Shown one piece after another: positions 35,875 to 45,292 of a stretch of 64,000 nucleotides of DNA (position 1 is its first letter; every line of letters begins with the position of its first letter). Location: assembly GCA_963281155.1 (NCBI GenBank), contig CAUJLY010000006.1:4650001-4714000 (forward strand). The letters run 5' to 3'. Made by a program: the position numbers and the translations under genes. The notes beneath the pieces are model-generated. The model was given only the letters and a program-made list of their open reading frames with translations. It was not told the DNA's origin and made no database searches. Source of the DNA: Rhabditophanes sp. KR3021 (taxonomy: Eukaryota; Nematoda; Chromadorea; Rhabditida; Alloionematidae).

Positions 35875-38690
35875 TCAGCGTTTAATTATACGAATTCTTG
35901 GTACATTGTGGATAACATACAAAGGCTTAGAATTTTTCATCAAATTGTCTGAGAATTCTATTTTTGGAACGAACTTCTTTTTTGGAAGTATTTTTGGGAT
36001 GCTGGCTGAGGTAGATTGTGTGCTTTCTGAGGATGGGCTGGCTGAAACATTTGAGTTAGAATCATCGTCTTCTTTTTCGGGTCTTTGAGTCTGTCTCTGT
36101 TCTCTAGTCTTACGAGCAGCAACCTTATTTCTACCTAAGTTTGTAAAGAATTAATTTTTCTCAATCACCACAACTTACCACGTCTGCGAATTTGTTTTAC
36201 AATATTGTTTTGTTCTTTAGTAAGTTCATTTTCTGTAATAAAAGATTTAAGTTCAGAAAAACTAAATTCTGCGATTTCAGATGCGGTAGCGGGAATATTA
36301 TTATCGCTGCAAAGAAGGTCATCCTTATTTGGGCGACTAATTTTTTTCTTCTCATCAAAGCAATTCTCTTCATTATTATTAGAGGAGCCTTGTTCACTGT
36401 CTTCAGAGTCACTGATAACTTCGACAATTGCGTAATCTGGATGCAAAGACATGTCCCCTATATTTGGGAGAACTCTACTCTTGATAATGCTTCTCACTTT
36501 TGTTGCTTTTCTTTCCACACTATGCTTCCTTTTTTTGGGATTGGATGGTTCAATATGCATGGCCCTGGGTGCCATCTTTCTATCATAAGCATTTTCGTCA
36601 AATGAATGAGCAGACAGGTCTAAACCATCGAGATAATTGTCTAGATTTAAACCACCCGATTCCTCGGGAATTTGATAATAAGAAGTACTTTCATAGTCAA
36701 AGTCAGTTGTATCTTCTTTATCTTCTTCTTCTAGCCCATCCAGTTCAGAAAACAAAGAAGACATGATATCTTTTGATCTTCCAAAAACATCTAATGAACC
36801 AAAATCCGAATCCATGTTGAGTTCTCTGTCAATGCACATGTCTAAACTATTTGTGGGACTGTTGGATCTATTTCTTCTGCAATAACTTGTAGACGGAGAA
36901 TCTCTCTCGTGGCTTTGTTGCCGTGTCAAAAAATTTGAAAAATCTGTGGTACCCAGCGTTTTGGATGACTAAAATAATAAATAGTTAATAAAATAAATAT
37001 TTATGAATTGTAATTTGATATTCATAAACAACCGCCAAATTTGTACTTAAAAAACTAATTTGGTATTCATTTGGTACATTTTTAAGATGAAATCACGTTG
37101 TCAGACGTTATTATTGGCCCTAATTGCATTTCACTCAATAACGGTATGTTATTCTCGTAACACTAAAGTCTACAAACCCGATGGAAATGTTCGTCTCCAA
37201 ACTAGCTTATTGTTAATGGCAAATAAATGGCATTACAATTCTGGTTTTTGGTATAAATATTTTGAAATTGAAATGTATTGGGAAGAGGCTTCTAATTTTT
37301 GCAAACAATTTGACGGCGATTTGACAAGTATTGGGAGTCAACAAGAAAATGATTTTATCGACAAAATGAGAAAAAGTAAGGTTATCTCTTTATATAATGT
37401 GATCTTATTATTTTAATTGTTTTGTAAGGGAACGACATTTGGATTGGATTTACCAAACCATTATATGGATTTTACGAGTGGAGTGATTTAACGCCAACAT
37501 CATATATGAACTGGGGACCTACACAGCCTAACGAGCCAAACGTTAACTGCGCAATAATGAGCTATACTATAGAAGATTCTGGAAAGTGGCATGATTATAG
37601 TTGCGACACCAAGATGCCTCAATATTTTGTATGCAAAACAAAAATTTGAAAAGTATTTTTATAAACTCGAATGACATTAAGTACCATTTTAAGGTAAATA
37701 AATATATATGTTTTTTCTAATGATAATTAAGCAACCATAAATAATCTTGCAATTTTGTGGGTAATGCACAACAATCTGAGTTAGCATAATTGTGTTCTCA
37801 ATTTATATTTATATCTATTTCTCAAATACGCTCATTAGTTGGATGCACGTATATTTTGTATGAATTGTCGCATAGTATCTTGCTCCATCTTAGTAAGCGC
37901 ATGTATAAAAATTTATATAATAAATAAAAATTGTGGCAACTATTAAAAAAGATATATTAATTAACAAACACCTTAACATCTAGACATCCAAAATCAATTA
38001 TCAAATGACTGGGAGTAATAATAAATAAACATCTTACTTAACAGTTACATTTAATAAAAACAAACTTGTCTCATTTTGATTTTGCGGGAAAACATCCACT
38101 AATTATTGAATGCCTCACAATAAATTATGCAAGGCAGATTGTTCTAAACATAGACGTTAAACTTACAGAGGGTATGTGTGAGAAGTCAAAATCAAGTGAG
38201 TTCGTGTCTGTTAATGGAGGTGTCACGCTTTGAAAGTTGCTTTCGAATAAAGTTGAGCTTTTAGAGTAAGTTGTTGTTTCAGGATTGAATTCGCTTTCAA
38301 AAAGTAAGACATTTACCCTCACAGATCCAATAGGAGGTAAAGTAGGAGCTTGGTCTGATTGTTGTTGCAAAAGGCTGAGTTCTTTGTTCAAAGTATTTTT
38401 GAGATATCCATTGACTATAAATGATTGATAAATGAGATTAAAATTCTAATGAATAACATACCATTAAAATTGTATTTTTTATCAACCTTTGGTGATGAAG
38501 TATGAAGGAAGAAGACAAGAGCCAATAAACAAATCAAGGCAAACAAAGTGTTATCAGACCATGTTTTATTCTTGTTCTTTATACTTTTTGCGTGCAATTT
38601 TTTGCCTACTTTTAGATTGGTGTTGTTATCATTGTTGTAAATATGGGTAAAATTCGATAATAACCACAAACAAATAATCTCCAATGTCAT
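35875..38690 (-). CDS. skn-1: SKN-1/Nrf-type CNC transcription factor with N-terminal membrane segment
   Basis: Exons 38690-38462, 38414-38167, 36968-36179 and 36134-35875 join in phase to 508 residues. An N-terminal hydrophobic segment (about residues 40-60, TLFALICLLALVFFLHTSSP) resembles the ER anchor of the SKN-1A isoform. An acidic S/E/D-rich middle follows. The CNC region (SDNNIPATASEIAEFSFSEL) leads into the basic region KQIRRRGRNKVAARKTREQR. As in C. elegans SKN-1 there is no leucine zipper. Unlike it, about 80 residues follow the basic region. SKN-1 factors drive oxidative-stress and proteasome genes; the ER-anchored form is processed before entering the nucleus. The gene starts only 200 nt after bec-1 on the same strand. 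A TTTGTAG acceptor 19 nt before the ATG could receive a spliced leader. A lectin gene lies antisense in its 1.2 kb intron. Confidence 0.9.
37087..37649 (+). CDS. secreted C-type lectin, nested in a skn-1 intron
   Basis: Exons 37087-37375 and 37429-37649 encode 169 residues. A signal peptide (about 1-22) is followed by a single C-type lectin domain (about 45-168) with the expected elements: YWEEASNFCKQFDGDLTSI, the WIGF strand, a QPNEPNVNC loop and final cysteines ending YFVCKTK. The WND calcium motif reads WHD, so calcium-dependent sugar binding is uncertain. Short single-domain CLECs are abundant secreted proteins in nematodes, often linked to gut or immune functions. The whole gene lies antisense inside skn-1 intron 36969-38166. 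AATAAA at 37697 gives a poly(A) site that is still inside that intron. Confidence 0.88.
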
Positions 38691-38890
38691 TTTTGCCAAA
38701 GGAGATTTCCTACAAATTTTATTTTAATTAGTTAATTAATTTAAGAATATTTAAGATAATATTTGGATATAAACCAAATTAGTTAATGGTAAAACAAATA
38801 ATAGGGATAATATTTAATAATAACTTAAAGAAAAAAATGACTTGTTATGAGAAAATAAGTTCTTTATGATAATGGCGCACACCCGTCTTT
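38691..38890 (-). promoter_or_regulatory. bec-1/skn-1 intercistronic region with probable trans-splice acceptor
   Basis: Only 200 nt separate the bec-1 stop (38891) from the skn-1 ATG (38690) on the same strand. On the minus strand AAAATAAAATTTGTAG ends at 38710 and gives an acceptor 19 nt ahead of the ATG, with an AATAAA-like string just before it. The spacing fits a nematode operon junction resolved by SL2-type trans-splicing, but no SL sequence can be seen from genomic DNA. Confidence 0.5.
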
Positions 38891-41412
38891 TTAAATTCCT
38901 TTTGCGATCGCAGTAGCGAGGATAGCAGCTTTTAAATTCAATAACATCAACCGCATTGCCTTTGTCCAGCGTTCATCTAAAAACCAAAATTATTAATGTT
39001 TCAATTAACTATGTATGCTAATAAAAACTTACGTTTGTTGAGGCTAATTTTTCCCGAATACCAGATGACCGACTGGTTATTGACATCGGGTACAAATCCT
39101 TCAGCTATTTTGTCTTTATAAATTGTATTAGGGAAAATTGTATTATTTGGCACTTTGACTTTGGTACGAAATTCAGTATCAAATTTACGTAAACAATTAA
39201 GGAAGTAACCTATTGCTGTGTCGTAGCTACTGCTTCTATATATTGCAAACGAATTTTGATGGAGATTTTTTACATCTTTTACTCCCGCATCGTCAGTGTA
39301 AACGATTGTAGAAAATGCACCAACGGGAATCAATTCATAAGGAGTGGCCTTGATTTGATTTAAATTGAATAACACGTGCAGACACAACACGCATTGCCCC
39401 CAAGCAGCATTTGATTCAGCAATAGTTGTGTTTTCATTTGATAAACGTACCAACCTCAAACCGTTGATACTCCCAATATCTTTTTCATCAACATTGATAT
39501 AAAACGTTTTGTTAAGGACATTCGTTTTAGTCAACACCTCAAGATGATCTCTGGAAGAGCTGATGATTCCATTAAAGTTTGCCTCTTTGAGGGTTAAGCT
39601 AGTCATATCAGAATGAATGTCTCTTAGACTACAATAATTCTGAGAATAATCGTCTTTAACCTTTTGCTCTAATTTCTCAAGTTCCTCGGTTTGATTTAAT
39701 AAACTTTTTTCTTCTTCATTTAGTTCGAGTAATTGTTTACAGAGACTGCTTTCTTTTTCCTAGAGAAAAGTTGTCAAAAAGATTATTTATAGCAAATTAC
39801 CTTTAATTCTGCGAGTAGTCTTCTTCCGTTTTCCTCGTCTTGCTCCACCTGAGCTCTTGTCTCGATCATACTTTTTAAATACTTAGTATAACACGCATTT
39901 TGTTCCTTTTCAAGGGTTACCTGTTTTCAAACATAATTGTTAATGATTGCTTTTGGAAATTAAATAGATTATGTTTATTACCAATTTTATTATGTATGTT
40001 TTGCGATGTTTCAAAATTTAAGCCACCAAAAATGTTTTACACCAACTACTCTGGTTAAGGCATCTCTCATTTACAATGAGAAATAGCGAACTCTTTAAAG
40101 ACCCTTGCACTACTCATTTCCATCAAATAATGAATATTGTCCACCGATTTGGCATTCCTTCAATTCTTGATGGAGATGAAAGAATCAACTCTATATGGGA
40201 ACTAAGAAAATACATCAATGGTGTAGGATCGCTCACAAAGTCGTCTACTCTTAATGAAATCCTAGACAATTATAGAAAACTAAAAAAGAGCAATAGTATC
40301 CCGGATGTTTTAGGTGAAGCTATTTGGACATAAAAAGATGTCTGCTGATAAGTTAACTGATCTCAAAAAAGTGGGATGTGGGAAAATGAAATATCCGGAT
40401 TATGGAGTAAATACCCACTGCTTGGCAAAATTAGTATCTTTTGCTAATTCAAATGAGGCAGAATCTCTAAGACTATCAAAATTAGCTGATGGAGTAGAAA
40501 GAAGTCCCAACATTTGTTCCTGGATCCAAGAATTGGCAAGAAATTTTTTAATGACTGGACTATGGAAGAATTTATCAAAGCCGTCTATTATGTAATAGAG
40601 TCCATGATTAATCCAAAGAAGCAACATGTTCACCAAAGAATGACAGCTCATCTCACCGTGTACAACACCAATATTGATGGTAACCGAGTTCTCTCCAAGA
40701 AACAAGAAAGAATAAAGGAGATCGGCGACACCAAGAAACCAGATGGTTCTAATTATCAAACAGTTGTAGTCAAGATGCAGGTACCTACAAAGAATTGGCT
40801 GAGAACGTGGAGTATGTTTAATTGAGTATTTCAGCAGTCAAGTTGCTAGCGTGGATCATGGGAAATGCACCATTGAGGAAGCTACAAACTCTCTCCAGCT
40901 AATGCCGAATTGCTTGGACAACTATTAATAGATAAATTGTTTGCGCTTAAGGATGTAATTATTACTGAATTTTAGTCTTATTTGTAATTTTTAGTAAATA
41001 TCTTTTAAATCGCTCCACCTGTTTTTCCATATTTTGTATCAATTCTTCATGACATTCCTGAAATAATTTAACTAACTCAATAAATACTATTCATAAACAT
41101 ACCTCGCACATAGGAGTTTGAAAAGAAGATGTTGATTTCGCAACCTCTGCCATTACATCGACTTTGTCTGCTGAGTCCTAAATTCATACAATATGGTTAA
41201 GAAAATAGTATTAGTTTTTAAGAAACAAACAAAACTTATCGACCGGTAATACAACTCACCTTATTTTCATCTACCATTTGTAGAAAGTAAGATTCTTTTT
41301 CAACATCAGAAAGTAAGCTATCGTGTAGCTTCAAATTAACTCGACAGACTTGGCAATTCGAATTTTCATAAATATCTTGGGAGGTAGTCGTGTTGTCTTC
41401 GTATAAACTCAT
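38891..41412 (-). CDS. bec-1: Beclin 1 (autophagy, PI3-kinase class III complex)
   Basis: Exons 41412-41260, 41177-41103, 41057-41019, 39920-39801, 39759-39033 and 38976-38891 join in phase to 399 residues. The N-terminus carries the CQVCRVNLKL pair seen at the start of Beclins (CxxC), and PMCEECHEEL is the second cysteine pair. A coiled coil (about 100-190) follows. The evolutionarily conserved domain includes KTNVLNKTFYI, INGLRLVRL and ESNAAWGQCVLCLHVL, and the end is ERWTKAMRLMLLNLK. Beclin is the scaffold of the VPS-34 lipid kinase complex in autophagy and endocytic traffic. The gene is followed closely by skn-1 on the same strand. Intron 3 (39921-41018) is about 1.1 kb, far longer than the others, and contains an antisense decayed gene. 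The BH3-like segment is not clearly recognisable. Confidence 0.9.
40074..40978 (+). pseudogene. intronless, multiply frameshifted unknown gene inside a bec-1 intron
   Basis: Protein-like sequence runs for about 900 nt without introns but switches frame several times. Frame segments start at 40076 (85 codons, from ATG), then about 40320-40515, 40514-40780, about 40780-40823, 40824-40895 and 40901-40978 with a stop. Each piece has normal amino-acid composition (for example MEEFIKAVYYVIESMINPKK and DHGKCTIEEATNSLQ), and together they read like one globular protein of about 290 residues. I do not recognise the family. It looks like a decayed retrocopy or a gene hit by several indels. Because neighbouring conserved genes carry single-base insertions, some breaks could be assembly errors, but five are unlikely to be. 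Confidence 0.5.
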
Positions 41413-43533: not shown

Positions 43534-45292
43534 ATGCTTCAACGATTCCGCGATATTGTTGGACGTGTCATAGGTAGGTTTTAACTTTCATTTTTAAATA
43601 TGAAGGCAAAATTGAACACAATTTATAACTTCTTAGTGATGGATAGTGGAACTGATCGTATAATATCCGGCATGGGAAGAGAACAAATTATTGAAAGTGC
43701 AGGAGCGACAGTAGTAGCAAACTTTGGATTGGATTGGAAAGACAGTAATAAGGATACCAGAAATAAAGATTTTCGTGTATGTTTTGCTAAAAATATCTTG
43801 CGAGTATATTAAAATACGAATTTAGGATATAAGTGCAGGGGTGCATGCTTTTATAGCGGTAACAAACAGAAAATCAAGGATTGCTAGACTGCCAATCAAT
43901 CAAGCCAGGCTTAGATACAAAGACTTACCGGCGTATGATTACAACCGAGTTAAATTAGTGCAGCCAGAAGGATCCACCGAGTCGGACTTTATAAATGCTT
44001 CTATCATTGAAATTAAAGGGTATGAATATAACTTTATCGCAACACAAGCACCTTTGCCAAACACAATCGAGCATTTTTATCAAATGATAGAACAGCAAAA
44101 TGTGAAGGTCATTGTGATGCTGTGTGAACTTACAGAATTAGGTGATAAAAAAAGAGAGGAGCCTGTAGGCCCAAACGCCCTTCCCGTATTTTATCTACCT
44201 CTAAACAAAAATGACAAATTGATTCATGGGAAATACACAGTTCGATGTTATGCTAAATCAAGGAAGAATGATTTGACAATTAGGAAACTTAAATTTTATA
44301 TTACTGGCGATCGAAAGAATTGTCATAAGGTTAAGCATGTCCATATGAGTGGATGGGGTGATCATAGTGTCCCAAAAGATAAGGAATGTATTTTTAATGT
44401 CATTAATAAGTTTGAAAAACTTCATGATAAGTATCCTTTGACCCCCGTTGTTATTCATTGCTCGGCCGGATGCGGAAGAACAGGGACGTTCATCGCAATT
44501 GCCACTTTTCGAAGACTAATCTTAAAAGGAGAAGTTAATACTGTGAGATTTAAGCAACATATTATGGATATTCGCAAACAAAGGCATGCAATGGTTCAAA
44601 GCTCAAAACAATTTGAGTATATCGCTCATACATTGTACTTTCTAGTTGATCAGATTAGATGGGATGATCATGACAATGTAGCTAGACAAGTTTCAGCTAG
44701 AGAAAAAGCGTATGACGCAGATATGAAAAAGCGGAAAAAGGCCAAGAAAAGAGACAAGGACGCGTTTGCAGATGAACCATTTAAGCATGTTTTGATTTAT
44801 GAAGATGGGCCATTTGGCACAATAATTGATCCCAATCCACCTGGTTTGTTCCACAAAATTGACATGAAAGCTTACAACGCCCCGAGGCCTCACACAGTCG
44901 TCGAACCTATCGCAACTTCACTACCTCCTCCAGTTTACTCTTCAATTGGTTTGCCTGAACCACATGAATACAAACTGTATAGCAAACACACTTTTGAACC
45001 AGGCAACTATAAACGTGATTCTGAGTCAAGTTCTAATGATGGATCAGTTAAGTCATTTGGTTCTGCAGACAATCAATTCGATGAATTAAATGGACAAAAT
45101 AGTATTAAAAGAAATAAAAGTATAGCAGAAAGCATTAGAAAAAAGGAGCATTTACATAATACTTTTGCTGAAAATGAAAGAGATAGTCCCGCTTTCTCCA
45201 ATAAAAATGTAGATATTGGAGTTATTGTCAAAAAATCAAGTGCCGGGTCATCAATTGAAAAAGGTACTGAGGAGGAACAAAAGAAAAAATGA
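43534..45292 (+). CDS. non-receptor protein tyrosine phosphatase
   Basis: Exons 43534-43573, 43637-43776 and 43826-45292 join in phase to 548 residues. The PTP domain spans about 65-345. Visible motifs are the substrate loop (AYDYNRVKL, then SDFINASII), the catalytic loop HCSAGCGRTG with nucleophile C272, the Q-loop region MVQSSKQFEY, and the acid loop WGDHSVP with D239. The acid loop has Gly where most PTPs have Pro (WPD). There is no signal peptide or membrane span, so the enzyme is cytoplasmic. A basic cluster (KKRKKAKKRDK, about 352) leads to a proline-containing and then S/E/K-rich disordered tail of about 200 residues. Nematodes have a large set of single-domain PTPs, many sperm-enriched. 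No specific orthologue is named. Confidence 0.92.

Follow-up and report, generated by a model that had tools for sequence, protein, structure and literature searches.

In C. elegans, bec-1 and skn-1a make up an operon in which skn-1a comes second (PMC3894169, PMC12820367). As described in PMC12820367, the locus also hosts clec-178, located within an intron of skn-1a, and a second isoform, skn-1b, which has its own promoter further in. Cleavage of COH-1 raises skn-1a, and also bec-1, which reaches the level of skn-1a, the latter being given as "data not shown" in PMC12820367. In a deletion of the locus, skn-1 fell upon COH-1 cleavage, and there was less of a switch to skn-1a (PMC12820367). The SKN-1A protein features a predicted membrane segment, and is the isoform that C. 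elegans needs in order to respond to a dysfunctional proteasome (PMC4987142). No paper on the conservation of the bec-1/skn-1 locus was found in the literature searched.

SL2 is placed in the suborder Rhabditina by PMC1657053. In Strongyloides ratti, SL1-like leaders were found on all the genes examined, and operons are resolved by them (PMC1657053). According to the rules given there, an SL1-like leader is made by GGTTT, 5–8 bases, CCCA and 5–6 bases to a 3' AG, and terminates with GAG. Neither bec-1 nor skn-1 is mentioned in the main text of the S. ratti paper (PMC1657053).

The bec-1/skn-1 order of C. elegans is also found in the genome of Rhabditophanes sp. KR3021, a free-living nematode of the suborder Tylenchina, family Alloionematidae; C. 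elegans belongs to the Rhabditina. Coordinates below refer to a window of 64,000 nucleotides, the whole stretch of DNA analyzed, which resides on contig C6 and has a G+C content of 30%; the genome searched measures 44.8 Mb, in six contigs. In both worms bec-1 is followed by skn-1, or skn-1a (PMC3894169, PMC12820367). By this analogy an operon is the probable reading of the locus, which we regard as the likely equivalent, in Rhabditophanes, of the bec-1/skn-1a operon known from C. elegans. A sequence-only reading had placed the two genes on the same strand, separated by a gap of 200 nt, with an acceptor 19 nt before the second ATG, and the spliced models agree with these figures to the base. 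The neighbouring pair that it named for C. elegans is a documented operon, having skn-1a downstream (PMC3894169, PMC12820367). It further suggested that autophagy would be tied to the proteasome programme if the two genes were transcribed jointly. Its suggestion that the order is kept between divergent nematodes is supported, for Tylenchina and Rhabditina, by one Rhabditophanes genome. The operon being already known in C. elegans, the pair itself is unsurprising. New are the occurrence of the order in a second suborder, the lectin gene nested in skn-1 there, which the sequence-only reading did not mention, the proposed membrane exon, and the set of SL RNA genes with an SL1-like leader.

The bec-1 gene lies on the minus strand, and its spliced model counts six exons and 399 aa. 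Exon 1 spans 41260–41412, with the ATG at 41412; exons 2 to 5 of the spliced ORF follow, in descending coordinates, at 41177–41103, 41057–41019, 39920–39801 and 39759–39033, and exon 6 (38976–38891) holds the stop, which ends at 38891. All introns of the bec-1 and skn-1 models are of the GT..AG type. The protein matches Pfam APG6 (8.6e-35) and Beclin-1 in PDB (2.2e-29); the match to APG6_N (4e-11, 43.9 bits) is slightly below the cut-off of 45. By its BARA domain and coiled coil the predicted product is a Beclin/BEC-1 protein. According to codon scores, the bec-1 reading frame was the best of three in all three exons tried. The first gene recognised on the 5' side of bec-1 encodes a tyrosine phosphatase (Pfam, 43826–45292) and is found on the opposite strand at about 2.2 kb or more, so bec-1 would head the unit. 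Past skn-1, an aldo-keto reductase gene (Pfam) starts on the minus strand at about 1 kb, as its start was read by eye, and is unlikely to be a third cistron.

The bec-1 stop and the skn-1 ATG are separated by 200 nt (38890–38691, both genes on the minus strand), a distance which holds only if the first exon of our skn-1 model, exon A, is part of skn-1. The gap includes an intercistronic region of 181 nt (38710–38890, minus strand), reaching from the bec-1 stop to a putative trans-splice acceptor, TTTGTAG, which ends at 38710. It is followed by a putative skn-1 5' leader region of 19 nt (38691–38709, minus strand). Since the motif TTTNYAG is found by chance in about 3% of given 30-nt stretches of the window, the acceptor by itself is weak evidence; the signal resides in the gene pair and in its order. 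The motifs ATTAAA and AATAAA occur 103 nt and 8 nt, respectively, before the putative acceptor. AATAAA occurs by chance in about 5% of base-shuffled versions of the 26-nt stretch before the acceptor, and U-rich and poly(A) elements in the gap were indistinguishable from the AT-rich background. The positions of the two motifs do not decide the polyadenylation site of bec-1.

The spliced model of skn-1 is also on the minus strand, and has four exons coding for 508 aa, from the ATG at 38690 to a stop ending at 35875. Exon A (38462–38690) contains the ATG, a basic stretch and a predicted membrane segment resembling that of SKN-1A; exon B (38167–38414) derives from the spliced model and from codon scores. 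Both are in frame from the ATG behind the acceptor, via two GT..AG introns, into exon C (36179–36968). The first of these introns measures 47 nt, in contrast to the 4347 bp of the first intron in C. elegans (PMC12820367). Intron 2 (36969–38166, 1198 nt), between exons B and C, hosts a lectin gene on the other strand. Exon D (35875–36134) encodes the basic region, a C-terminal tail without leucine zipper, and the stop. The protein matches the Pfam family bZIP_Maf (2.5e-8) and two PDB entries, the better one being the DNA-binding domain of C. elegans SKN-1 (1skn, 5.4e-15), the other human NRF2 (8e-4). C. elegans SKN-1 ends soon after the basic region. In contrast, dozens of residues extend beyond it in the Rhabditophanes protein, and in the translation this tail is rich in proline, serine and acidic residues, with no leucines at heptad spacing. 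By codon use, the frame of the model scores highest of three in exons B, C and D. The noncoding reference consists of 189 overlapping, non-independent open windows of 75 codons, drawn from stretches presumed to be noncoding (mean -0.188, maximum 0.006 bits per codon); exon B, at 0.088 bits per codon in its frame, exceeds all of them. The protein search found no relatives of exons A and B, the skn-1 query giving only the worm's own protein.

A C-type lectin gene is located on the plus strand at 37087–37649 (exons 37087–37375 and 37429–37649), antisense within skn-1 intron 2. The 169 aa product matches Pfam Lectin_C (4.5e-19), and shows 100% identity along its entire length to a Rhabditophanes sp. 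KR3021 protein in UniRef. With an S. stercoralis protein it shares 69% identity over 86% of its length; no C. elegans protein is included among its two UniRef matches. As in C. elegans, a C-type lectin gene resides in a skn-1 intron; the host is the second intron of the Rhabditophanes model, the third of C. elegans skn-1a (PMC12820367). An orthologue of clec-178 is expressed in the nematode Laxus oneistus (PMC3294214), and conservation of the nesting is not treated in the parts of the clec-178 literature searched. The lectin ATG and exon C are separated by 118 nt (36969–37086, spacer defined by distance only). As the two lie on opposite strands, the lectin gene and a short skn-1 form would lie back to back, and we infer that this spacer is a candidate divergent promoter for both.

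Genes encoding spliced leader RNAs were searched in the whole genome by a pattern derived from seven SL RNA candidates already found, a pattern which would miss divergent leaders. At least 103 matches were obtained, against none with the reversed pattern, and a looser version of the pattern added one further variant. When the seven copies, two of which are near-identical, were aligned, the leader, an Sm-like site and an upstream element proved to be conserved. SL RNA genes are present on all six contigs, as dispersed units and as short tandem runs with spacing of about 240 bp. One leader, GGTTTAAAAAACCCAGTTTGAG, was counted by eye, in exact form, in 97 of the 100 listed matches of the 103; in contrast, 19 leader sequences were found in RACE clones of S. 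ratti (PMC1657053). By the spacing rules of the same paper, GGTTTAAAAAACCCAGTTTGAG classes as an SL1-like leader. In this, as in belonging to the suborder Tylenchina, Rhabditophanes resembles S. ratti, in which operons are resolved by SL1-like leaders (PMC1657053).

The canonical C. elegans SL1 sequence, allowed up to 3 mismatches, gave a single match in the genome, no more than its reversed control did; this match is a genuine SL RNA variant according to the Rfam SL1 search and to the alignment of copies. The Rfam SL1 model (RF00198) gave seven matches, none above cut-off (50 of 14192 first-look candidates scored), and the SL2 model (RF00199) gave none at E values up to 10 (48 of 6148 first-look candidates scored). 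Matches below cut-off were observed in 4 of 14 control genomes, in the RF00198 and RF00199 searches alike. The result for RF00199 argues only weakly for the absence of SL2, because the parallel SL1 search recovered 7 of at least 103 genes. An SL2-like pattern had a single match in the genome, which is itself an SL1-like variant. In the window as a whole, no Rfam family was matched at gathering scores.

In the arrangement that we propose, transcription would start at a promoter 5' of bec-1 and yield one pre-mRNA across bec-1 and skn-1. Cleavage and polyadenylation inside the 181-nt intercistronic region would generate the bec-1 3' end, and the SL1-like leader GGTTTAAAAAACCCAGTTTGAG would be spliced onto skn-1 at 38709. 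In contrast to the SL2-type operon of C. elegans, an SL1-like leader is expected in Rhabditophanes, because SL1-like genes are present, SL2 was not detected among the candidates scored, and S. ratti provides a precedent; an SL1-like leader on skn-1 is thus the most likely route of operon resolution. A TTTTAG acceptor-like site is located 19 nt 5' of the bec-1 ATG, and bec-1 perhaps receives an SL1-like leader too. The leader-spliced skn-1 mRNA would encode a long protein of the SKN-1A type, bearing at its N-terminus a membrane segment such as is predicted also for C. elegans SKN-1A (PMC4987142). A shorter skn-1 product from exon C would probably have a separate origin, and the intron-nested lectin gene would be transcribed on the opposite strand from its own promoter.

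Exons A and B could alternatively make a separate small membrane-protein gene, skn-1 having a promoter of its own beside the lectin gene and starting in exon C. In that case bec-1 would share its operon with a gene other than skn-1, and the distance from bec-1 to skn-1 would increase to about 2.05 kb. In keeping with this, the UniRef skn-1 model (P0003, 306 aa), to which the last 306 residues of our model are identical, is a Rhabditophanes sp. KR3021 protein which starts at 36839, the first Met of exon C, and omits both exons. Moreover, the frame of exon B runs on past the donor and meets its first stop near 38125. Codon use backs neither exon A, whose score of -0.095 bits per codon falls inside the noncoding range and below that of another frame (-0.041), nor the 43 codons that precede the first Met in exon C (0.031, against 0.19 in another frame). 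Yet exon B ends with a CT|GTAAGT donor, exon C continues in frame directly after TTTTAG, throughout the 43 codons preceding the Met, and a membrane exon is found just where skn-1a-specific exons are expected, between bec-1 and the nested lectin. Mean hydropathy of the membrane segment is 2.09 over 19 residues; a comparable hydrophobic segment was found in none of the three frames that open with ATG and span 76 codons or more in presumed-intergenic stretches of the window, a very small sample. Because both its position and its membrane segment fit, exon A is likely a skn-1a exon, and a separate gene made by exons A and B is unlikely. That bec-1 and skn-1 are mere neighbours by descent, transcribed separately with a skn-1 promoter in the gap, seems very improbable. 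The promoter of skn-1b in C. elegans indicates that internal promoters exist at the locus (PMC12820367), but the gap is short, the genome contains SL RNA genes, and in C. elegans these two genes do form an operon (PMC3894169, PMC12820367); we infer that bec-1 and skn-1 are probably co-transcribed, and that the skn-1 mRNA probably carries a leader.

The nested lectin, in turn, could have been inserted independently, and not be an orthologue of clec-178. Its likeness to clec-178 is one of position, and the clec family of C. elegans is very large, which raises the chance of a coincidence. Still, a C-type lectin gene following the 5' exons in a skn-1 intron in both worms is unlikely to be coincidental, Lectin_C having at least 44 matching stretches in the Rhabditophanes genome (this lectin included, several in one gene). 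Apart from itself, the lectin reaches at best 35% identity within the genome, to be compared with the 69% of the S. stercoralis relative, and the Rhabditophanes lectin classes therefore as an old, distinct family member. Independent insertion appears improbable.

It is conceivable, if doubtful, that bec-1, skn-1a and the nested lectin have formed one regulatory cassette ever since Tylenchina and Rhabditina last shared an ancestor. The occurrence of the pair in a Tylenchina worm, with a lectin in the skn-1 intron, suggests that the locus may be kept intact by selection. With Rhabditophanes, the choice between a SKN-1A made from the operon and a short SKN-1 could be compared in two species, and a correction is proposed for the UniRef skn-1 model, which lacks the membrane exon.

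Sequences similar to both genes are found elsewhere in the genome. Two skn-1-like genes, which look alike by eye and feature a CNC-like region, reside on contig C2 (L023, 4367–5311; L024, 4745–5533), and are 51% and 34% identical to skn-1 of the window; no beclin match was found on this contig. Beclin-like copies are located on contigs C4 (52% identical) and C3 (50%, a partial match), at L063 4236–5078 and L064 4635–4928, and no skn-1-like match was found on either contig. The duplicated copies were rejected as the true operon partners, none of the skn-1-like and beclin-like copies being adjacent. In the window, bec-1 intron 3 (39921–41018) contains a fragment of a dispersed repeat, at about 40020–40980. 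It has a weak match, under the Pfam cut-off, to a LEM-3-like GIY-YIG nuclease, and 43 matching pieces, some of them adjacent, are found elsewhere in the genome.
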